From: Butyrivibrio sp.
Lineage (GTDB): Bacteria; Bacillota_A; Clostridia; Lachnospirales; Lachnospiraceae
Direction of reading: 5' to 3'
DNA length: 13,803 nt
Assembly: GCA_024690635.1 (NCBI GenBank)
Contig: JAILOW010000190.1
Coordinates: 1 to 13,803, forward strand
Part shown: positions 2,228-12,980 of the stretch, piece after piece
How the letters are laid out: each line of letters opens with the position of its first letter
Position numbering within the stretch: position 1 is the first letter of the stretch
Program-made: the position numbers and the translations under genes
The notes under the pieces: model-generated
What the model was told of the DNA's origin: nothing
The model's database searches: none
The model's input: the letters and a program-made list of their open reading frames with translations, nothing else

Positions 2228-5200
2228 TCACTTCACCACCGTCACAGTGTACTTCACCGCATACCTTCCATTCACGGAAGTCACATAGATCGTTGCGGTA
2301 TCGCCTTCCTGGGCGGTCTTGGCAACGGTGACTTTACCGTTTGCGGCTACCGTAGCTACAGCTGTGTTGGAGCTTCGGTAGGATACGCTTGTATCTGTGT
2401 ATTTCTTGTACTTGGAGTAGGTCTTCTTGGCGGCCTTGGCCTTTGCTGCGCCTGAAACGCCGTCTATATCAACTATAGGTGCAAGCTTCAGGAACGCGCC
2501 AGCCTTCATGTTTCCGCTGTAGGTTAGACCTTTAAGCGGATCCGTAAGAGTCACATCATTGACTCCCTTCTTGGCTTTAGCAGTCTTAAGCTTAAGTCCT
2601 GTGATCTGTCCGCGAACAGTAACCGTGCAGGTTACCTTCTTCTTGGATCCGTCTGTTGCCACACCTGTGAGCTTTACAACGCCCGGTGCAACGCCTTTGA
2701 TCGCAAGCACCTCACCGTCTTTGGTTGTTACGGATGCACCTGCCTTGCCAAAGAGAGCTGCCGAGAAGGTAGTGTTCTTTTTAACTGCAGCAAGGGATAC
2801 ATTCTTGCCTCCTACGGTCCACTTTACAGAAGGATCTGTCACATCTGTTGGCTGAACATAATAAACGCTTACCAGACCATAGTTCTTTCCTTCCTGGGTT
2901 CCCACAGTAAGCTTTGACTTGTCGATGGCGATCTTTTTCACAATGGAGCGCACATCAAAGGTCACAGATGCAAAAGGTGCCTCTCCGTATGCTTTGCTCG
3001 CAGCAGAAGTTGCTGTGATCGTTACTGTTCCGGGAGCAATTGCCTTTACTACGCCTTTCTTTGATACTGTTGCTATACTTGTATCTGATGATGTCCATAC
3101 AAGGCCTTTTGTAGCAGCCTTTCCTTTACTCCTTGTAAGCGTAAGCTTTGTCTTTAATGTAAAGGTCTTTCCTTTAACAAGTCCCTTGTTTTCAAGTGTC
3201 TTTGCATTCGTAAATGTAACCGCCTTAACGGAAGGTGTGACCGTAACCTTGCAGGAAGCAGAAGGATTCACAGTCTTACCTTTCTTGGTAACTGTTCCGT
3301 TTGCTTTCACCGTAACAGTTGCAGATCCGGGCTTAAGGGCTGTTATCACTCCGTCCTCAACCTTTACAACAGACTCATTTGAGCTTGCCCATGTGTAGCC
3401 CATGTCTCCGTCGGGATTTACAGGACTTAGGTTTGCGGTAAGAGTAGCTGTGTCACCTTCTCCGATTGAAAGCTTCTTCTTGGATATACTTATACCCTTT
3501 AGAGGATTTGTCGCAGCTACAGTAACCTTGCAGGTCACCGTCTTTTTATAGCCATTAAATGCCTCAACAGTAGCAGTGACAGGTACATTTTTGGCTGTCT
3601 TTGTTCCTGCCGTTACAAGTCCGGTGTCAGAAACAGTTACGCTGTCAGCATATTTAGGATCCACAGACCATGTAACGGTAGGTGCATGTCTGAGACTTGT
3701 TCCGGTTGCAGTCAATCCCGGAACTGTGGAGGTAATATTTGCTTCAAGCTGAACGCTGTTAGCCCCCGGTGCCTGGCTTACAGTTGCCGATGTCATGTTA
3801 AGTGCCACACTCTTTACAGGGACATAAAATGTTAGTAAATCTGACCGTCTTCCCCAACTAGCGCGTTCTTTACCAGCGTATTTTGCATATACATAGCATC
3901 TGCCCTCTCCTACGCCGGTAATTACTCCATCGTCTGAAATTGTCGCCACATCATCAGCACTGTCTAATGTACTCAGTTTTTCAGTCTCCCATTTGATTTG
4001 GGGCTTTATTGGTACTATATTATCCGCCCATTCAATGTCCATAGGATAACTCTTACCCACTTCAAGGACTGTAATGCCGCCTTTGGGCGATACAGAATAA
4101 TCTGTAATAGGAGCTCCTACTGTAACATTACAGGTTGCCTTCTTGCCACTGTCATCCACTGCGGCTGCTGTGATTACAGTCTTTCCTTCAGTAACTCCGA
4201 TGACTTTTATGCTAAGGCCGTCTTCAGAAACCTCGATATTTGCATTTTCATTATCGGCTGTCCAAACAAGCTTCTGAGCAGCACTATACGGAAGGACAGT
4301 AGCGGTAATAGTTTCACCAATCTCATCCACACCAACCACGCAGCTCTTCTTATCAAGTGAAATGGCGGTTACACGATCAAATACCGTCACGCCGCACTGA
4401 GTCAGTACAACTCCCGGATCATACTCACTTATGGCAATGATTTCTGCAAATCCTGCAGAATGACCGGTTACTTTTCCACTTTGATTTACGGAAGCCACAT
4501 CCGGGTTGGAGCTTGACCATACTACCCTGGTATTTGTCACTTCTTCGTCAAGGAATGCTGGAGTAAGAGTAAAGGATTTGCCTACTGCTATTTCCTTTGT
4601 TGTACTAAGCACTGCATCCGTCTTATTTTTCTCAACCAGTCCCATTGCCTGTTGGCGTACTGTAACGCTTATTGTAACTGCATTAAGATAGTTCGATCCG
4701 GTGACATTAACAGTGATTGTGCCGGCTCTGGATGCATCACCGGCGCGAACAGTATAGCACAGCTTATTACCCTCCATCCTGGGTTCCTTCTGAGATACAT
4801 AGTAGACGGTTCCGTTTCTTTCCACGGAACCATATGTAGGATCTCCAAAACCTTCAGGAATATACTGATTAAGGTCTATTGCATCACTTACCTGTTCGTT
4901 ATACGGATAGCTTCTTGTGATATAAATATTCGTATCGCCATGCATGCGAACACGATATATCTCAAACTCCTGAGTCTTTTCGGAAAATGCATAATTACCA
5001 TCAGCAGCTGCCGTAATGATAATCTTGCCCTTTCCGGCATTTATATTATCTTCAAACCTAGCATTGTACTGATCCGTAAAAAGAACCATCCCAGTATCAG
5101 GCTCGTTAACTGTAAACTTCGGTTCAATAAGGGTTCCGGTGTAATGATACGATCCTTCTACTTTAATATTTGGAGCGGTATCTTTCTTTGCAATAGTGAA

Positions 5201-8200
5201 TACCTTTGTCACTGAACCAGTAAGGTTGCCACCTTCATTTGCACTTACTGTGAGGGTATAGCTTCCCGCATTGGTTCCGGTATTGCCTGTAACCGTGCAC
5301 TGATCCGTTACATCATTATCACCGATTTTCACAAGAACGTTCTGGGTCTGCTTACGTGCGTTATAGGTAAGAGCATCGCCCAAAGTTACCAGGTTCTCGG
5401 TAAGTTCTGCTGTTCCTATGGAAAAGATGCAGCTTGTCTGGTCGGCATCAGTTACGTAATTTCCGGCATCGTCTCCTGCAAGACCGGCTGTTGCTATATA
5501 GCCTTCGCCTGCATATTTCTTTCCTCCGGATACTTCCACGCTGCATTTATCACCGTCTATAACTCCTGTAACAGTAGCCATAGGCGCCTGCGTATCCCCG
5601 TTAAATTTAAAGCTTGTATTGCTCCAGGTGATATCTACAGGCTTCTTTTTTACAGTCAGACAGATCTCTGCTGACCCTGTAGCTGAATCCGAAATATAGG
5701 TTGCCTTGATATTTGTTGTTCCGGCCTTTTTGATCGTTACTTCTCCGGTGGTACTGTCAACATCAGCCACTGTAGGCGCCGAACTTTCCCATGTCCAGGT
5801 GACGTTATCTCCCTGCTCTGCAGCTTTTCCTGTAAGAGTGAATCCTTCACTTCCATACTCTACAGTCCTATCGCCGCCTTCGATGCTCACTTCCGTATGA
5901 TCCAGTTCTGAACCTGTGACTGTTACCAGCACATCAAAGTCCGCATAGTTATCAATCTCTGTAATAGGGACTTTATATGTAGCCGTAGTGCCTGACGGTT
6001 TCATATATGCGTTAAAAAGAAGTACATAAGATCCATCATTTAATTCCGGCAAGAAAGGAATGTTTCCGTCTGCCACCTGTATACCGGTAATTGCCATGAA
6101 ATCTTTTGTTCCACTTACATAAGCGCACTTGGAAATATCAGGATACTCTGCTCCATCAGGAAGTCCCGGAAGCTTGCAAAAAGCAATAAGATTTCCGGAA
6201 TTTGCGTATACGGTTTTATATACATGTTTTGTTCCGGTATATACTGCCTTTGCAATACTTGCCTCAACCTTAACCGGGGCGACATCATTATGATTTTTAT
6301 CACCCTTTACCATGTACCAGACATCATAGTCTCCGGCATTTGTAGCCTTGGGAAGGGTTTCAGTAAATGCGGATACCTGTGGCTGCTCCTCACCTTTTGC
6401 GGTCATCGCATAGCATATGGTGCCGAAGTCAGTATATCCTTTGTTTACTAGCACCTGGTCAGAGCCGTTATAAGTAAGCCCTTCTCTTGCAGTGGGCGCT
6501 GTCAAGGTAGGATCCGCCTTATTTATCATTACTGTAGCTGAGCCGGTCTTTGCGGCATATCCTGATGCTGTTATCTTGTAATAAACAGTACGAGGGCTGT
6601 CGGATGCATCCGTATACTTAGGACTTGTTGTCAGGTTGTAGGTTCCTTCTTTTGTTCCGTACTTAACAGTTGCACCGCTCCTGGGGCTTAAGACGGTAAC
6701 TGTGATGCCGTGGGCTTTTCCGTCATAGACGCCTTCATAGCCGATACTCTCAGCCATCATGGAAACAGACACAGGAACGCTGGCATAGTCGGTTTCAAAC
6801 GGCATGGTCTCATCCAGGGCTACAATGTATATGTTGTAATCCCCGGTGATACTGCTATCAAGCTTGAATTTAATTGTACCCTTGGTTCCTGATGCAGATG
6901 CCTGCGCCTTCTGAAGGAGACGAGCGCCATCGCTCCAGCCATTTGATGTCCATACTCCGTCTGTTACAACTGCAACAACGCTGTCAGGTTTTGACAGACT
7001 GCTCTTATTCGTTATCGCGTAAGCAATTGATACATTGCCGTTTTTATCGATCTTTGGAGCTTCGGTAGTCTTTATTGAAAGACCACTATCTTTAATTGCA
7101 AGTGTGTACTCTGCACCAATCTCACCGGCACCGTTAGAAGAACCGTACTGGTTAAGATCTGAAAATACAACTGATGACAAGTCGACGTTAAAGGCCGGAC
7201 TCATGTCCTGATTCGTTTTTGCAACTATAAATGTAACATTTCCTTTAGTAACGTCGGATTGTTTTTCTTTACATGATACACACCTAAGATAATCGCTGGA
7301 TAGGGGCGTTCTTAAAGCCCAGCATCTCATCTCAAGCCCATCTTTATTTAGAGCATGGTTTGACCCGCTTCCCGGATATCCATAAGCTTCATTTACAACA
7401 TCTTTTTCATCCAGCAGGAAAATCTTATCATTATGAAGCGGTGTAGTTACGCCGGATTCTATCGTGCTTTCTGCAATAGCATCCTTCTCCGGGCCGGTAA
7501 AACAGCCATCCTTTGTAAGGAATTTTTCGCCATTAAGACCGACTTGCGGATCACTGTAATTCCATTCGGTTACTTTTGCGGCTCCCGGATTAGGTATACC
7601 ATCCTCGTCAAAAGGATCCACATATATCCCGGTATCACAATCAAGCAGCATGGTTTTGCTGCCGGATTCAGCGCTATATTGGTCAGTACTCTTGCTAAGG
7701 ACCCTGTAGCGAAGGGTATCTCCATCATATTTACCATAATGTACATAGCTTCCCGACCAGGAATCTAAAGCGGATGCCGGCAGATTAGGATTTGCCATCA
7801 CATCTGTTCCAAGTCCGGATACAGTCTTTTGGGCAACTATAACTTTTACATTTACGGTATATGGAGCATAATCCTTTGCTCCTTTTACAGAAACAGCAAT
7901 AGTTGCGCTTTTCCCTGCCTCAATACCGCTTTTAACTGTTACATTAAGCTTGCTTCCGGATACTGTAGGCTTTCCTGAAAGGATTCCTTCAGGATCTTCT
8001 ACACTGGAAAAGCTTGCTTTTCCGCCTTCTGCAATAGCAGAAGCTATGCTGAATGTATTACTTCCCTGCTTTACATACTTCACAGGGGATAATTCTTCAT
8101 GGTTTGCGTAGAAATTTTCTACCTTCACAGGAGCACTTGCATAGTCAGACTCATATACCCCATTTTCATCCACTGCAACAATGTAGCAGTTGTTGATATT

Positions 8201-9697
8201 GATATTGTCCGACGAAAACGTGAGCTCTCCTAACTCTTTAACCTCATCATAATCAAACTTTTCGCACTGAATCAGCTCTCCCTTTTTTTGCGAGTATTGA
8301 TCGTAGCTCCATCCATTTTCAGTCCATTCATTTTCATCCGGTGTGGAAAATACCATAATATAGTCCGGATCAGAAACATCGCTGTAGTCATTGACCTCAA
8401 AGGGAATCTTTACAACTCCGTCAACGTAGCTTGACCTACCTGTTGTCTTTATACGAAGTGCATCATCAAGTAGTGCCAGGCTTAAACTGGCGCCGCTGTT
8501 TCCTACCTGGGGTGCGCCGCTATAATCGATTTGAGAAGCAAAGATCAATTTAGATCTGTCAACAAAGAAAGCTGGCGCCACTCCCCTTGAGCCATATCCG
8601 GTTGAATATTGCAATTCACCGTTTTCGTCTACCCAATAAGGCTGATTATGGCTCAGATTAAACTCAATAGTCCACCATCTTCCAACCTCGTTAGTATTAA
8701 CATCGCGTTTTTTTCTGGTCTCGGGATTATCGTATCCGTACTTATCTGCTACCGCCTGATATTGGTTGAGTAAAAAAATCTTTTCTCCATCTATCCTCAG
8801 TCCTTCAATACCCTCTACAATATCAAACGTAGGCGCAAGAGAGTTCTTCTCAATTGTGGTAAAAACGCCATCCTTGTCCAGGAATTCCTCTCCATTCAGA
8901 TCCCTTTTAAGATCGCTTAAGTCCCATGTTGCCTTACTGCCACTGGAATAATATACCGAATTAAATAAGATTTTATCTGAGTCAAGAAGTAAGCCTGCGC
9001 TTTCTACCCTGGTGAGCAAACGATATTTTACAGGTTGGCCTTCGTATTTACCGTAATATACATATTGTCCCAGCTTACTAAGCTTATATCCAAGGCCCAA
9101 AGCAGCAGGTGTCTTGCCTGTGCCGGGAAGATTTTCTGCGGTAACAAGCTTTTCTTCCTTGTCTTTATCTTCCTCAAGGATTTCCTCTTCATCCAAAGAT
9201 GTATCTAATGCTGCTTCATCTGAGGAACTTTCCACACTAGAAGCATCCCCGGGTTCATCTGTACCTTCCTCGGGGTCTGCAGGATCATCTGTATTGTCTT
9301 CCGGATCTGTTGGATCCGCGGGATCTGTGGGCTCTGTAGGGTCCTCCGGCTCGTCCGGGTCATCATTTCCGTCATCAGGATCGTCGGGATCATCCGGGTC
9401 ACTGGGATCGCCGCCTTCGTCGTCCGGGTCAGCCGGATCTGTGGGATCTCCTGCTCCGTTGGTCGGATCTGCCGGATCTGTGGGATCTTCTGCTCCGTTG
9501 GTCGGATCTGCCGGATCATCGATGCTCTCTGCTTTTTTCTGCAGATTTGTATCAATTCCTTCCACGGCAAAAATCGTCGTCCCTGCCCCCTCATTAACTC
9601 CTGCCGCAAGAACTGTCTGCGGCACAGAACCTGCCATCAGCACTATACTTATCCCCAGCGCCAATAACCTTTTCATTGCTCTTTGTACTTTCTTCAT
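2228..9697 (-). CDS. Giant secreted Ig-like (BIG2) repeat surface protein with two DUF6273-like domains
   Basis: About 2489 aa. The ATG at 9697 (MKKVQRAMKRLL) is preferred over the in-frame ATG at 9712 because GGGAG lies 8 bases before it. Residues 1-31 are a signal peptide ending TVLA. Residues about 58-185 are an acidic Asp/Pro linker of DPTDPADP type. Two DUF6273-like domains follow (about 212-385 and 652-847; YVYYGKYEG and YVHYGKYDG starts), each trailed by a similar module ending in IVA(V/L)DE and DYAS. Residues about 985-1150 hold MBG/YDG-like domains (YEGVYDGKAHGITV, LTYNGSDQVL). From about 1260 to the end come roughly nine BIG2 domains (WSSSNPDVASV, YTWASSNESVV, LVWTSSDTSIATV), mixed with further MBG-like repeats. 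I see no LPXTG motif, SLH domain or C-terminal membrane segment, so attachment is unexplained. It is probably an extracellular adhesin or scaffold. It is monocistronic, with its own leader and terminator. Confidence 0.92.
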   Translation of the reverse strand: MKKVQRAMKRLLALGISIVLMAGSVPQTVLAAGVNEGAGTTIFAVEGIDTNLQKKAESIDDPADPTNGAEDPTDPADPTNGAGDPTDPADPDDEGGDPSDPDDPDDPDDGNDDPDEPEDPTEPTDPADPTDPEDNTDDPADPEEGTDEPGDASSVESSSDEAALDTSLDEEEILEEDKDKEEKLVTAENLPGTGKTPAALGLGYKLSKLGQYVYYGKYEGQPVKYRLLTRVESAGLLLDSDKILFNSVYYSSGSKATWDLSDLKRDLNGEEFLDKDGVFTTIEKNSLAPTFDIVEGIEGLRIDGEKIFLLNQYQAVADKYGYDNPETRKKRDVNTNEVGRWWTIEFNLSHNQPYWVDENGELQYSTGYGSRGVAPAFFVDRSKLIFASQIDYSGAPQVGNSGASLSLALLDDALRIKTTGRSSYVDGVVKIPFEVNDYSDVSDPDYIMVFSTPDENEWTENGWSYDQYSQKKGELIQCEKFDYDEVKELGELTFSSDNININNCYIVAVDENGVYESDYASAPVKVENFYANHEELSPVKYVKQGSNTFSIASAIAEGGKASFSSVEDPEGILSGKPTVSGSKLNVTVKSGIEAGKSATIAVSVKGAKDYAPYTVNVKVIVAQKTVSGLGTDVMANPNLPASALDSWSGSYVHYGKYDGDTLRYRVLSKSTDQYSAESGSKTMLLDCDTGIYVDPFDEDGIPNPGAAKVTEWNYSDPQVGLNGEKFLTKDGCFTGPEKDAIAESTIESGVTTPLHNDKIFLLDEKDVVNEAYGYPGSGSNHALNKDGLEMRCWALRTPLSSDYLRCVSCKEKQSDVTKGNVTFIVAKTNQDMSPAFNVDLSSVVFSDLNQYGSSNGAGEIGAEYTLAIKDSGLSIKTTEAPKIDKNGNVSIAYAITNKSSLSKPDSVVAVVTDGVWTSNGWSDGARLLQKAQASASGTKGTIKFKLDSSITGDYNIYIVALDETMPFETDYASVPVSVSMMAESIGYEGVYDGKAHGITVTVLSPRSGATVKYGTKEGTYNLTTSPKYTDASDSPRTVYYKITASGYAAKTGSATVMINKADPTLTAPTAREGLTYNGSDQVLVNKGYTDFGTICYAMTAKGEEQPQVSAFTETLPKATNAGDYDVWYMVKGDKNHNDVAPVKVEASIAKAVYTGTKHVYKTVYANSGNLIAFCKLPGLPDGAEYPDISKCAYVSGTKDFMAITGIQVADGNIPFLPELNDGSYVLLFNAYMKPSGTTATYKVPITEIDNYADFDVLVTVTGSELDHTEVSIEGGDRTVEYGSEGFTLTGKAAEQGDNVTWTWESSAPTVADVDSTTGEVTIKKAGTTNIKATYISDSATGSAEICLTVKKKPVDITWSNTSFKFNGDTQAPMATVTGVIDGDKCSVEVSGGKKYAGEGYIATAGLAGDDAGNYVTDADQTSCIFSIGTAELTENLVTLGDALTYNARKQTQNVLVKIGDNDVTDQCTVTGNTGTNAGSYTLTVSANEGGNLTGSVTKVFTIAKKDTAPNIKVEGSYHYTGTLIEPKFTVNEPDTGMVLFTDQYNARFEDNINAGKGKIIITAAADGNYAFSEKTQEFEIYRVRMHGDTNIYITRSYPYNEQVSDAIDLNQYIPEGFGDPTYGSVERNGTVYYVSQKEPRMEGNKLCYTVRAGDASRAGTITVNVTGSNYLNAVTISVTVRQQAMGLVEKNKTDAVLSTTKEIAVGKSFTLTPAFLDEEVTNTRVVWSSSNPDVASVNQSGKVTGHSAGFAEIIAISEYDPGVVLTQCGVTVFDRVTAISLDKKSCVVGVDEIGETITATVLPYSAAQKLVWTADNENANIEVSEDGLSIKVIGVTEGKTVITAAAVDDSGKKATCNVTVGAPITDYSVSPKGGITVLEVGKSYPMDIEWADNIVPIKPQIKWETEKLSTLDSADDVATISDDGVITGVGEGRCYVYAKYAGKERASWGRRSDLLTFYVPVKSVALNMTSATVSQAPGANSVQLEANITSTVPGLTATGTSLRHAPTVTWSVDPKYADSVTVSDTGLVTAGTKTAKNVPVTATVEAFNGYKKTVTCKVTVAATNPLKGISISKKKLSIGEGDTATLTANLSPVNPDGDMGYTWASSNESVVKVEDGVITALKPGSATVTVKANGTVTKKGKTVNPSASCKVTVTPSVKAVTFTNAKTLENKGLVKGKTFTLKTKLTLTRSKGKAATKGLVWTSSDTSIATVSKKGVVKAIAPGTVTITATSAASKAYGEAPFASVTFDVRSIVKKIAIDKSKLTVGTQEGKNYGLVSVYYVQPTDVTDPSVKWTVGGKNVSLAAVKKNTTFSAALFGKAGASVTTKDGEVLAIKGVAPGVVKLTGVATDGSKKKVTCTVTVRGQITGLKLKTAKAKKGVNDVTLTDPLKGLTYSGNMKAGAFLKLAPIVDIDGVSGAAKAKAAKKTYSKYKKYTDTSVSYRSSNTAVATVAANGKVTVAKTAQEGDTATIYVTSVNGRYAVKYTVTVVK
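9433..9517. repeat. 39-bp tandem repeat encoding the Asp/Pro linker
   Basis: Two 39-bp copies (9433-9471 and 9472-9510) differ at one base and are followed by the first 7 bases of a third. They encode 13-residue units of the TNGA-x-DPTDPADP type near the N-terminus of the surface protein. The wider region 9290-9530 is built from shorter GGATC/TCCGG-rich units with the same Asp-Pro output. Confidence 0.9.
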
Positions 9698-9770
9698 ACT
9701 TACTTCTCCCATTGTGAATTTACCTGTTACTTATCCGTGCTGTCAGCTCGTGGCTCTTTTTAACGCGCAA

Positions 9771-9964: not shown

Positions 9965-10762
9965 TTACAGAAGCAGTTCTTTTATCTTCTTTTCTATCTC
10001 TTTTACATCCAATGGCATATTCTCTGATTCCATGGAAAACAACAGGCTATCTCCCAGTCTGAGCCCGCTTTTCTCGTAAGCCTCAAGTTTTTTCAAAGCT
10101 TTTGTCGCATATTCTCCATTGTTGATAAGCCCAAAATGTTCCCAATATATTGTTTTTCTTTTTCGGACATTGAGAATAACAAAATCAGGACATAGAATCG
10201 CCCCGCTTCGTAGTTTAAACTGCGGCTCATATGCATACGGAATCTTGTATTTGTAAAACAAGTCCGCTAGGATCTTTTCAGATTTAGATCTGACATATTC
10301 ACCTCTCTCGGTCAGATACTTCTCTTTTTCCGGAAAGGAGTTTTGTCCACCTTTATGAGTTTCAAGCCATTTTTCAATGTAGACTTCATCCGGCATAAGA
10401 ATTGGATCAATGAGTGCCTTCTTGCCCTCTCCCAGATCTTTGTAGACTTCTTGAATAGAATCAAAATCGTATAGTCGCAGGAAGGAATCCAGCCTCTTGT
10501 GCATTACCTTGATTTTATTGAGCAGCTGCTTGTCATAATGCTTCTGAACAGTCGCTGCAATCATAGCTCTGTCTATCGCCTTAACATATTCAAGTCTGCC
10601 ATCGGAGTTCTGAAGATAATACTGGTAGCCATGCTTCCTTTTTGAAGTCACTACCGGTCGCTCCTCCTTGACCTTTATAGACTTTAGGTCTTTTTCAGCC
10701 TGAGCCATCACTTGTTCCATCCATTTAAGCTGCTCCACCAGCTCTGTTCTGTAATCTTGTAT
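9965..10762 (-). CDS. PD-(D/E)XK-like protein, probable ATA start, next to a 54-bp repeat array
   Basis: About 265 aa, cytoplasmic. The start is uncertain. The first standard start is GTG at 10738, which has no ribosome binding site, whereas an in-frame ATA at 10762 lies exactly 8 bases after GGAGG (10775-10771). I take the ATA; the protein then begins MQDYRTELVEQLKW. The N-terminal half is a helix, then a GYQYYL..SDGRLEYV hairpin, then another charged helix (about residues 10-95). The C-terminal half has RSKSEKILADL (E162), CPDFVIL (D193) and YWEHFG (E208), the order of a PD-(D/E)XK fold in which the usual lysine is replaced around the WEH motif. Such proteins are usually unnamed in Firmicutes. 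The 54-bp array lies immediately upstream and might be its leader or its binding site. Nuclease activity is inferred from fold only. Confidence 0.7.
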   Translation of the reverse strand: MQDYRTELVEQLKWMEQVMAQAEKDLKSIKVKEERPVVTSKRKHGYQYYLQNSDGRLEYVKAIDRAMIAATVQKHYDKQLLNKIKVMHKRLDSFLRLYDFDSIQEVYKDLGEGKKALIDPILMPDEVYIEKWLETHKGGQNSFPEKEKYLTERGEYVRSKSEKILADLFYKYKIPYAYEPQFKLRSGAILCPDFVILNVRKRKTIYWEHFGLINNGEYATKALKKLEAYEKSGLRLGDSLLFSMESENMPLDVKEIEKKIKELLL

Positions 10763-10780: not shown

Positions 10781-11486
10781 GCTTGTTTTTGACTTGTTTT
10801 GCCTTTGCTGTGTCTATCTCCTAGAAAACCCAACACTAGTTTTAGCTATTTTTACCATGCTAGTGTCCGCCACTCGAGGGCATATACACTAGTATCTCGC
10901 GACAAGCCCTCTGTTAGTGTCCACTTTTTCTTTTGCTCGGCACTGAGCTTTAACTTGTTTTGAGTTTCTAGTGTCTACATTTTGAGAACATGTACACTAG
11001 CATCGCGCAGTACACCGCTTTCTAGTGTCTACTTTTTCTCCAGCCCGACACTTGTTTTTAACTTGTTCTACCTTCCCAGTGTCCACCTTTTGAAAGCTTG
11101 AGCACTAATTTTCCATGTTAGGCATTCTCTTAGTGCCCACCTGTCGTAAACGCTTACACTAACATTACGCAGCACACCGCTTTCTAGTGTCTACTTTTTC
11201 TCCAGCCCGACACTTGTTTTTAACTTGTTTTGAGTTTCTAGTGTCTACATTTTGAGAACATGTACACTAGCATCGCGCGACAAGCCCTCTGTTAGTGTCC
11301 ACTTTTTCTCGTGCCAGACACTGATCTTTAACTTGTTTTGAGTCTTTAGTGTCATTATTTCGAGAACATGTACACTAGCACCTCGCAGCACACCGCTTTC
11401 TAGTGTCTACTTTTTCTCCAGCCCGACACTTGTTTTTAACTTGTTCTGCCTTCCCAGTGCCCGCCCCACCAAACATAGACGCTGTA
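10781..11486. repeat. Array of 13 palindromic units with 54-bp period
   Basis: Units begin with TAGTGTC or a variant at 10861, 10915, 10969, 11023, 11077, 11131, 11185, 11239, 11293, 11347, 11401 and 11455, every step exactly 54. A degenerate first unit is at about 10808, one base off phase. Each unit is a 32-base inverted repeat (AGTGTC, 17-18 variable bases, then GACACT or ACACTAG) and a 22-base linker. Units at 11023, 11185 and 11401 are identical, as are those at 10969 and 11239. Two linker types alternate: one carries TTTAACTTGTT, the other a CGC-rich stretch. Stops occur in all frames, so it is not coding. Repeats and interiors are not organised like CRISPR. The left edge reaches the ribosome binding site of the nuclease-like gene. 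Function is unknown. Confidence 0.93.
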
Positions 11487-11579
11487 AAACAATTCCCTCT
11501 CAAAAGCTTGTTAAAAAACACCTTCAAAATTGGATTTTCTGTGGCAAGACATATACTGCCACCGGCGAACGCCGTAAAA

Positions 11580-11595
11580 CATCAAACATTTGATG
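11580..11595. promoter_or_regulatory. 16-bp palindrome, possible operator
   Basis: CATCAAA and TTTGATG form perfect 7-base arms with 2 bases between. It lies about 3-18 bases downstream of the predicted start point of the candidate promoter at 11605-11633, a position suited to a repressor site. The next stretch towards the array (11541-11574) has two small hairpins, GTGGCA/TGCCAC and CGGCG/CGCCG. I see nothing else in 11487-11540. Confidence 0.35.
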
Positions 11596-11604
11596 CTAAT
11601 GACG

Positions 11605-11633
11605 AATATACTCCAAAACAAAAACAAAAGCAA
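11605..11633 (-). promoter_or_regulatory. Candidate promoter reading into the repeat array
   Basis: TTGCTT (11633-11628), a 17-base spacer and TATATT (11610-11605) on the minus strand, starting right after the U-tract of the upstream gene's terminator. The start would be near 11598. Transcription would cross the whole array before reaching the nuclease-like gene, giving a leader of about 835 nt. The -10 is good; the -35 matches only in TTG. Confidence 0.4.
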
Positions 11634-11634
11634 G

Positions 11635-11672
11635 AAAAAGCCGCGAGGGCAGCTATCTGCTGCCTTCGCGGC
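11635..11672 (-). terminator. Intrinsic terminator of the CbbX-type ATPase gene
   Basis: A 14-bp GC-rich stem (11640-11653 with 11659-11672, one mismatch) with a 5-base loop is followed on the minus strand by TTTTT (11639-11635) and more T-rich sequence. It lies 60 bases after the stop codon. Confidence 0.92.
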
Positions 11673-11732
11673 AATAAGGTCTACAAAATGTCCGGGAAGG
11701 ATGAAAATACCCGGCAAGCGCACAATGCCTTG

Positions 11733-12980
11733 TCACTCCTCGGCCTGTTCATTTTCTACTTCTAAGCTCTCGCCCTGTTCTTCAATAACATCTTCTGAAT
11801 CGCAGGCCTTCTCCGCCTTCACAGGACTTTCCTCCGGCTTTTCGACCGTATCTGACAGGTCCTCAAGGACAATTGTCATCATGTCCTCGCCGGTGGGATT
11901 CTCCATGGCGGAAACGCGGCGCGCCTGATTGGTGATGATCTCCTCGAAGAGATTACGCACCTCTCTGGCGTTGGCAAAATTGTCGATGTTTTCTATCTTT
12001 CTGGCGGTGATGAGAGCGCGTATCTGGTGCTTAACATCGTCAGCCACCTTGTAGTCGTACTTTTTGCAGTTCATATCAAAGATCGCTTCAAGCTCATCGA
12101 TGTTGTAGTCCGGGAACTCAATATACTTGTTGAAGCGGGACTTAAGACCCGGGTTACTATCGATGAATTTCTTCATGGGATCGGTGTAGCCTGCTACGAT
12201 CACAACAAAGTCATCTCGGTTATCTTCCATGGCCTTCAGAATTGTATCGATGGCTTCCTGTCCGAAGGCGTCATCCTTTTGAGCAAGAGAATAGGCTTCA
12301 TCTATAAAGAGCACTCCGCCCTTGGCTTTGGCGATCTGCTCCTGAGTCTTGATGGCTGTCTGGCCAACGTAGCCTGCAACAAGTCCGGAGCGGTCCACCT
12401 CAATGAGCTGTCCCTGGGACAGAACGCCTATCTGCTTGTAGATGCGAGCAATAATTCTGGCTACGGTAGTTTTACCTGTTCCGGGATTTCCTGTAAACAC
12501 AAGATGAAGGGATACGGGAACTGACTTAAGTCCTTGCTCCTGTCTTGCTTTCTGGACCTTTACAAAGGCAGTGAGTTCCTTCACATCATCTTTGATGGTG
12601 GACAGGCCGATGAGTCCGTCAAGCTCTTCCATGGGATCTTTTTCAGGTTCTGCGGGCTTTTCCTCAGCAGGGGTGCTGACATTCTTGTCAGCAGCTAAAA
12701 GCGCCTTGGCTTCGCCGATAGCGTCATTTGCATTTTTAAGTGCGTCCTCCGAATTTCCTGCGGAAGCCATGTTGCCGGATGATTCCTCAGCCCCCGCTCT
12801 TCCTGCACTTCCGGCTGATGCTGAATCGTCCAAAGATCCTGTTAATGCAGACGCTCCGCCACTCACACTCGCAGGCTTGCCCCCGCCGGAAAAGAAGTCT
12901 CCATACAAACTTCCCAGCAGGTCTTTCTGCATGCTTGTGATCTTTTCAAGTGTTTCCAGCTCTTTGTCTCTCTTTTCCAT
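11733..12980 (-). CDS. CbbX/SpoVK-type AAA+ ATPase
   Basis: A 415-aa cytoplasmic protein. Residues 1-30 are a charged helix and about 30-115 a Gly/Ser/Ala-rich flexible linker. The AAA+ module starts at PMEELDGLIGLSTIKDDV (about 116-133). Walker A is GNPGTGKTT (164-172), the pore-loop region is LVAGYVGQTA (200-209), Walker B is GVLFIDEAYSL (222-232, D227/E228), the arginine-finger region is GLKSRF (278-283, R282) and sensor 2 is NAREVRN (337-343). Residues 375-415 are an acidic tail. The family remodels protein complexes as hexamers (CbbX acts on RuBisCO; relatives include SpoVK and the ATPase domain of type VII EccA). No RuBisCO or type VII gene is visible here, so the client is unknown. GGAG lies 6 bases before the ATG. 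A hairpin separates it from the upstream DUF5722 gene. Confidence 0.93.
   Translation of the reverse strand: MEKRDKELETLEKITSMQKDLLGSLYGDFFSGGGKPASVSGGASALTGSLDDSASAGSAGRAGAEESSGNMASAGNSEDALKNANDAIGEAKALLAADKNVSTPAEEKPAEPEKDPMEELDGLIGLSTIKDDVKELTAFVKVQKARQEQGLKSVPVSLHLVFTGNPGTGKTTVARIIARIYKQIGVLSQGQLIEVDRSGLVAGYVGQTAIKTQEQIAKAKGGVLFIDEAYSLAQKDDAFGQEAIDTILKAMEDNRDDFVVIVAGYTDPMKKFIDSNPGLKSRFNKYIEFPDYNIDELEAIFDMNCKKYDYKVADDVKHQIRALITARKIENIDNFANAREVRNLFEEIITNQARRVSAMENPTGEDMMTIVLEDLSDTVEKPEESPVKAEKACDSEDVIEEQGESLEVENEQAEE

Follow-up and report, generated by a model that had tools for sequence, protein, structure and literature searches.

The window analyzed here is a 13,803-nucleotide stretch of Butyrivibrio sp. 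DNA. It contains a phased array (10809–11461, no strand assigned) of twelve inverted repeats and one lone half-site, with the form AGTGTC...GACACT or TACACT at 54-bp steps. The twelve repeats occupy 10809–11430 and start at 10809, 10862, 10916, 10970, 11024, 11078, 11132, 11186, 11240, 11294, 11348 and 11402. When the window was laid out at 54 bp, each repeat had a fixed span of 29 bases. The repeat at 10862–10890 (likewise unstranded) is a typical example, with a left half-site at 10862–10867, an interior of 17 bases and a right half-site at 10885–10890. Half-site starts are separated by 23 bases within a repeat and by 31 bases over a spacer, and the lone half-site, AGTGCC, lies beyond the last repeat at 11456. 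We searched both strands of the window for AGTGTC-N18-ACACT, allowing at most one mismatch, and found 21 matches, every one within the array. Shuffled versions of the window (n = 200) gave a mean of 0.25 matches and a maximum of 3. These counts confirm the array of twelve units that a first-pass annotation of this DNA had described. The annotation had also reported an exact 54-base step throughout. This holds for the last eleven starts, but the gene-proximal step is 53 bases, and an alternation of the units had been overlooked. Identity within the array is 0.58 at lag 108 versus 0.41 at lag 54; the units alternate in two forms, and the array is therefore partly a dimer repeat. A 120-codon ORF (11403–11765) has a start that touches the array edge. 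We treated this ORF as spurious and the array as non-coding.

The array sits 3′ of the end of a gene for a SpoVK/CbbX-like AAA ATPase (11733–12980, minus strand), its upstream neighbor, whose match falls below the NCBIfam cut-offs. A nuclease-like gene, also on the minus strand, borders the array on the other side and is read away from it, with the array just upstream. Between the ATPase gene and the array lies a terminator-like hairpin (11639–11654, on the minus strand of the ATPase gene) identified by a consensus match only; the stretch contains three terminator-like sites versus a mean of 1.0 in shuffles. We found no sigma-70-like site in the stretch, the only RNA family match in the window was a tRNA, and a search of phage DNA with the window's intergenic region returned no match. 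A very large ORF (2228–9712, 2494 aa) adjoins the nuclease gene; it contains Big_2 domains as well as a region rich in DP/E.

The array-linked gene (9965–10762, minus strand) codes for 264 amino acids. The frame that aligns to its relatives begins with ATA at 10762–10760, and the listed ORF starts at a GTG at 10738. The ATA lies 7 bases past AAAGGAGGG (10778–10770) and behind a good ribosome-binding site, with a standard start codon absent at the aligned position. The start codon may have mutated or be an atypical one, or the assembly may be wrong at this point. The predicted structure (pLDDT 91.8) has a helix at residues 4–27, three strands at 36–58, a long helix at 61–96 and then a PD-(D/E)XK-like fold. 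The three strands form a beta-sheet at the tip of a coiled coil (10574–10660, minus strand; codons 34–62, numbered from the Q at 10759), and modeling the N-terminal part alone recovered the same elements. Within the PD-(D/E)XK-like domain (9968–10354, minus strand; codons 136–264), a comparison of 65 sequences showed no variation at E161, D192, E207 or H208, and we read these as putative catalytic residues. The protein thus shows the core fold and candidate acidic catalytic residues that define the PD-(D/E)XK nuclease superfamily. Its fold matches are PD-(D/E)XK nucleases, and PADLOC nuclease-domain profiles match the gene family with E-values down to 2.9e-26.

Foldseek with the whole model of this protein found no match at E ≤ 0.001, and a sequence search of solved structures gave one match at E 0.03. 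A fold search with the beta-capped coiled coil recovered generic coiled coils only. The N-terminal domain matched nothing among viral folds at E ≤ 0.001, and no named DNA-binding fold was prominent among its listed PDB matches. No Pfam family matched the window protein at E ≤ 0.001, and no family at E ≤ 1 was common to more than one of 17 relatives.

We examined how widely the gene family is distributed. A protein search at E ≤ 0.001 recovered 295 relatives, and none of the 120 listed carried a precomputed Pfam domain. Twenty relatives came from genomes whose titles name Lachnospiraceae, Butyrivibrio, Oribacterium or Acetatifactor; many of these have upstream arrays, and their inverted words differ. 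At the same threshold, matches occurred in 111 of 299 genomes from the family of genome G002, the weakest of which may reflect the nuclease domain alone, and in 37 of 196 genomes at the order level. Matches at the phylum level (14 of 299 genomes) include several to the nuclease domain only, inside large proteins. Eight genomes contained 2–11 matches each, some of them fragments of broken copies. Plasmids contributed seven records with weak matches to the nuclease domain, and comparison of viral contigs with the protein alignment gave 31 pattern matches and no relatives. In total we gathered 138 loci, of which 128 remained once duplicates were removed. We also scanned 14 further loci from across the order. 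Six contained a periodic region with identity of at least 0.5 (L139, L142, L145, L161, L162 and L165), four had a weaker periodic region only and four had none. Seven of the 14 belong to weaker-scoring sub-families, and three of these reach an identity of at least 0.5, with periods of 74 (L161), 62 (L165) and 48 (L162); the L162 region may be coding. The L161 array (positions 1–715) has the form TATCATC...GATGATA at a 74-bp period and adjoins a weaker-scoring family member in another genome of the order.

Arrays are linked to the upstream side of the gene. Periodicity was significant against shuffles in 88 of 122 upstream regions and 26 of 124 downstream regions; the other 34 of the 122 copies had no significant upstream period at the threshold used. 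Periodicity alone does not prove inverted words; 85 of 128 loci have a word with at least three inverted pairs. A clear array lies downstream of the gene in L094, L126 and L122, and L116 and L137 carry the same word on both sides. Repeat words vary from locus to locus, and the number of units differs between the close relatives L012 and L013. One intergenic region, in L158, carries two arrays side by side (1402–1800 and 1870–2230), with the words ACATGCA and ACACGCA.

The periods of these arrays follow the DNA helix. Best periods cluster near 53, 63, 74, 84 and 94 bp, with peaks at 53, 62–64 and 73–75 and a few at 83–85 and 94. With a helical turn of 10.5 bp, the best lag deviates from a whole number of turns by no more than 0.2 turn in 82 of 88 arrays, where uniform lags between 40 and 100 would give 44%, and none of the 88 falls at 57–60, 66–69 or 77–82. 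The Rayleigh R is 0.78, whereas 2000 random draws from uniform lags never exceeded 0.35, in a test that ignores shared descent of arrays; the 88 periods are not independent because related arrays inherit their period. The word TGATGCTTT has a period of 62 in L091 and 73 in L109. The occurrence of one word at different whole-turn periods indicates that the period can change yet stay in phase. Spacing at whole helical turns speaks for double-stranded DNA bound by protein on a single face, more than for RNA hairpins, and we favor the interpretation that the arrays bind protein in this way. The first-pass annotation had suggested that spacing may be under selection and would place all sites on one face of the helix, and the periods of the relatives strongly support this. 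Protein binding is also the best supported of the readings that it had offered for the array, judged from sequence; a centromere-like site, which it had listed as well, is a less supported candidate.

We asked where else the words occur, using a genome (G289) that is assembled as one contig of 2.86 Mb and has three nuclease copies. Exact repeats of its three words number 41, 41 and 32 and are spread over roughly 15, 13 and 6 places, respectively, some of which hold a single repeat. For each word, one array directly adjoins a nuclease copy. In the 800 kb that we scanned, the three words recur at 94 (17 of 19), 71–72 (15 of 16) and 72 (18 of 18) bp, and the interiors of the repeats differ from place to place despite these fixed steps. 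The words are private to the genome: in four other genomes the first two gave no matches and the third gave one match in one genome, and backward control patterns gave 0–1 per genome. Because each word searched genome-wide came from an array that adjoins a family gene, its gene linkage reflects the choice of query. A word-free scan of 800 kb of G289, which avoids this choice, found 46 periodic regions, 13 of which hold one of the three words. Nine regions have at least three paired inverted 7-mers, and all nine come from the three families; most of the remaining regions lie inside long ORFs or have no more than a single inverted pair. One region (284008–284650, about 4008–4650 of L180), a tandem repeat of period 96 whose inverted arms read TGTTATA, falls outside the three families and is tied to no known nuclease copy. 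We also searched 131 ORFs near G289 arrays for a partner gene. This gave 96 similar pairs, and among the 30 listed no unusual recurring gene appeared other than the nuclease; we take the other listed pairs to be ordinary paralogs.

Similar behavior was found in other genomes. The L006 word has 13 exact repeats in G004. Eight make up its own array, and a second 52-bp array accounts for three of the five that lie apart from it; four other genomes had none. Two words of G006 and G007 (59/77 and 86/25 repeats) were absent from three other genomes, backward patterns gave 0–1, and the steps among the matches listed were 52 and 53, rarely one base off. One of these words, CTACGGG, has a nuclease-linked array in G006 (L044). 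In G007, the only nuclease copy identified for CTACGGG is truncated (L019) and lies about 3 kb from such an array. For an ACATGCA array in G004 we found no cognate copy; this genome yielded two nuclease copies, neither of them with this word.

Words also appear to be exchanged. After the same gene (89.9% identical DNA), presumably a sugar-phosphate mutase gene, G006 has a CTACGGG array and G007 has a GGCAAGT repeat ahead of the contig end. In L012 (10000–10768) and L013 (10669–10768), the same intergenic site of two sister genomes carries repeats with different words. The word at a site therefore seems replaceable, and the sequences suggest that one repeat family replaced another here. Array repeats also lie within about 100 bases of the starts of several draft contigs (C1 and C8 of G006; C9, C10 and C30 of G007), so short-read assemblies probably tend to break at arrays, and counts of arrays are probably too low.

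We analyzed the placement of the arrays in G289. With at most one mismatch, we found 36 clusters containing 154 repeats. By simple ORF calls, 33 clusters could be classed: 16 lie between convergent genes, 15 between co-directional genes and 2 between divergent genes. Background gaps of at least 100 bp (n = 462) comprise 73 convergent, 308 co-directional and 81 divergent cases, which gives a convergent enrichment of p = 3e-5 and a divergent depletion of p = 0.10. In a size-matched test we compared clusters of at least two repeats (n = 33; 15 convergent, 17 co-directional, 1 divergent) with array-free gaps of at least 280 bp (n = 167; 23 convergent, 104 co-directional, 40 divergent). This comparison gave a convergent excess (p = 1e-4) and a divergent deficit (p = 0.004). 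Thus, in this one genome and with simple ORF calls, arrays favor convergent gene ends. The families also differ in chromosomal position. GC skew places the G289 origin between about 0.44 and 0.64 Mb, and 13 of 15 GGGGTAC arrays but 3 of 13 ACACGTAA arrays lie within 700 kb of 0.55 Mb (p = 2.7e-4). Across five origin positions tried in this one genome, the p-value for this bias ranged from 2e-4 to 3e-3. The third family has two of six arrays near the origin, and label shuffling indicated clustering within families (p = 0.0016).

We compared words with protein sequences to locate a candidate reader. Without phylogenetic control, word similarity tracks identity at residues 34–62 with a mean z of 2.86 (66% of columns at z > 2), compared with a mean z of 1.46 (33% of columns) in the nuclease domain. 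Across all pairs, word similarity follows protein identity weakly (correlations 0.05–0.13; Spearman 0.12), and a contrast emerged only when the comparison was restricted to columns. Similar words were shared by 3.5% of 875 pairs at 30–35% identity and by three of six pairs at 60–80%, again without phylogenetic control. On the basis of these sequence comparisons, we propose that the beta-sheet tip is the word reader.

We considered whether the protein controls its own gene. At many loci the array stops a short distance from the gene. In L116 a TTGACA-N17-TATAAT promoter match encloses the half-site TTAGCC, and in L006 a half-site abuts TATAAT. The nearest half-site, however, lies a median of 103.5 bases from the start (62 loci). 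The best promoter match reaches 10 of 12 positions in four loci (L116, L087, L067 and L084) of the 51 listed, and only L116 has a half-site inside it. With the nearest half-site this far away and three of four strong promoter matches free of half-sites, we dropped general autorepression; it may at most be frequent.

Together, we consider it probable, with room for doubt, that the window array belongs to a dispersed extragenic family of binding sites and that the adjoining gene encodes a nuclease that reads the word and spreads the arrays. The window's own word would then be dispersed in its genome as well. The protein would read the inverted word shared by its array family, with the beta-sheet tip of the coiled coil contacting each half-site. 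Whole-turn spacing would align successive dimers on one DNA face, allowing them to bind together. The PD-(D/E)XK domain could then act on the assembled DNA, perhaps by cleavage, and maintain or amplify arrays or copy them to new gene ends. At some loci the last half-site might also repress the nuclease gene. More tentatively, such families may form several mutually orthogonal address systems on Lachnospiraceae chromosomes. Each would pair one nuclease-fold protein with 6–15 mostly extragenic private-word sites or arrays, on which whole-turn spacing would permit assembly of a one-faced filament. Different systems would occupy different parts of the replichores (the origin or terminus half), and word and period would be heritable, replaceable at the same site and rewritten together with the beta-sheet tip.

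The arrays might instead be chromosome-organizing sites, at which a domesticated nuclease fold clusters arrays and marks regions in the manner of parS or matS with no need for cutting. The origin bias of GGGGTAC over ACACGTAA arrays and the clustering within families fit this model. That evidence comes from a single genome with an origin placed by GC skew, local spreading would cluster families too, the third family is mixed, and the catalytic-looking residues are invariant. We consider this model unlikely. A local operator model, with the array as the many-site operator of a protein that regulates its own gene, would account for arrays that end near the gene and for the half-sites that overlap promoter-like hexamers in L116 and L006. 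It is improbable given that the places of the G289 words are mostly remote and at gene 3′ ends, that most strong promoter matches are free of half-sites, and that a simple operator does not need 5–16 phased copies.

Two further readings concern RNA and neutral expansion. The first-pass annotation had raised a chain of RNA hairpins, and arrays transcribed from 3′ regions could serve as RNA stabilizers, terminators or nuclease substrates. Arrays do occur at 3′ ends, and compared with 20 shuffles the window array folds more stably on either strand (z of −4.65 and −3.37), as expected of inverted repeats. Quantization by 10.5 bp has no reason in RNA, however, and a small test found only five compensatory positions over all three G289 families. 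The loops are long, and the terminator-like hairpin separates the upstream gene from the window array. We regard RNA hairpins as improbable. Least probable of all are neutral tandem repeats that expanded through slippage or unequal exchange and have no relation to the gene nearby, even though unit number does vary between L012 and L013. One word at identical spacing in 6–15 separate places with differing interiors is not expected of such repeats, nor are whole-turn periods or upstream linkage to one gene family; dispersed fixed-step words and whole-turn periods are hard to reconcile with neutrality. The earlier annotation had held that units dispersed at random and never beside the gene family would argue for a neutral repeat. 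The outcome of this check is mixed: the units are dispersed over the genome, but arrays often adjoin the family (88 of 122 upstream regions).

We compared the arrays to known repeat systems. By genomic behavior, the closest are REP/BIME repeats with RAYT transposases (REPINs), minus their defining enzyme. REP and BIME elements are inverted repeats outside genes that lie mostly between co-directional or convergent genes, and some of them form arrays in which the orientation alternates; the gene for a cognate DNA-processing enzyme adjoins its repeats, an organism can hold several repeat types, and repeat number is tied to the presence of the enzyme gene (PMC2817692, PMC3733652, PMC8049555). The G289 families share with them dispersed extragenic inverted repeats at gene 3′ ends. 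By analogy, the nuclease may drive the spreading of its arrays. Several features distinguish the two systems. The RAYT enzyme is an IS200/IS605-like tyrosine transposase, whereas a PD-(D/E)XK fold is predicted here. Our repeats occur mostly as arrays with whole-turn periods, in contrast to single hairpins or pairs, and in these searches the host range of the phased arrays centers on Lachnospiraceae. Other comparisons separate the two less clearly. REP repeats have a GTAG or CGTC tag at the foot; 60 words compared by eye here share no tetranucleotide, though CTACGGG/CCCGTAG happens to contain GTAG. The RAYT gene is flanked on both sides by its repeats; here periodic regions are more frequent upstream, and L116 and L137 have the same word on both sides. 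REP repeats and their enzyme coevolve; here, without phylogenetic control, word similarity associates most with the tip residues.

Other systems resemble the arrays in part. A regular step and differing interiors recall CRISPR, but only short inverted arms recur here and the interiors are variants of one another. A scan of five window proteins revealed neither a cas family (Pfam) nor an integrase, and a Cas1 match in one of 17 relatives (E 0.015) is at chance level. The 54-bp step leaves no room for the cassettes of an integron attC layout. On both points we agree with the first-pass annotation. The parS and matS sites and helically phased clusters such as DnaA boxes combine a cognate protein, repeated sites and helical-turn phasing. 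In our system, by contrast, the word differs per copy, each family has many arrays and the protein has a nuclease fold. The C-terminal domain resembles stand-alone Vsr/TnsA/Bax1-like PD-(D/E)XK nucleases and PADLOC PDC-S68 domains; to our knowledge, those families lack both the beta-capped coiled coil at the N terminus and an association with phased arrays.

Among the open-access papers listed by our text searches, we saw none that describes a PD-(D/E)XK gene together with phased arrays. As far as our searches reach, private-word, whole-turn-phased, mostly extragenic arrays and PD-(D/E)XK-fold proteins form a real, undescribed system. It joins dispersed bacterial repeat arrays, a private word for each paralogous nuclease-fold protein and a whole-turn spacing rule, a combination that we did not see among those papers. 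If the pairing is functional, it would provide dozens of natural word–protein pairs for learning the DNA-reading code of a beta-sheet module and would allow helical cooperativity to be compared in natural arrays spaced by 5, 6, 7, 8 and 9 turns. It would also mean that REP-like repeats originate outside RAYT transposases, and would offer a second system for studying why bacteria keep them.

The spacers may hold a further element. By eye, the window spacers (AACTTGTTTTG) contain an A-rich motif resembling AAAAGCAAG, perhaps a host-factor site or a bend. A similar motif recurs, again by eye, beside unrelated words in L058, L059, L067, L071, L076, L084, L089, L090, L091, L101 and L117.
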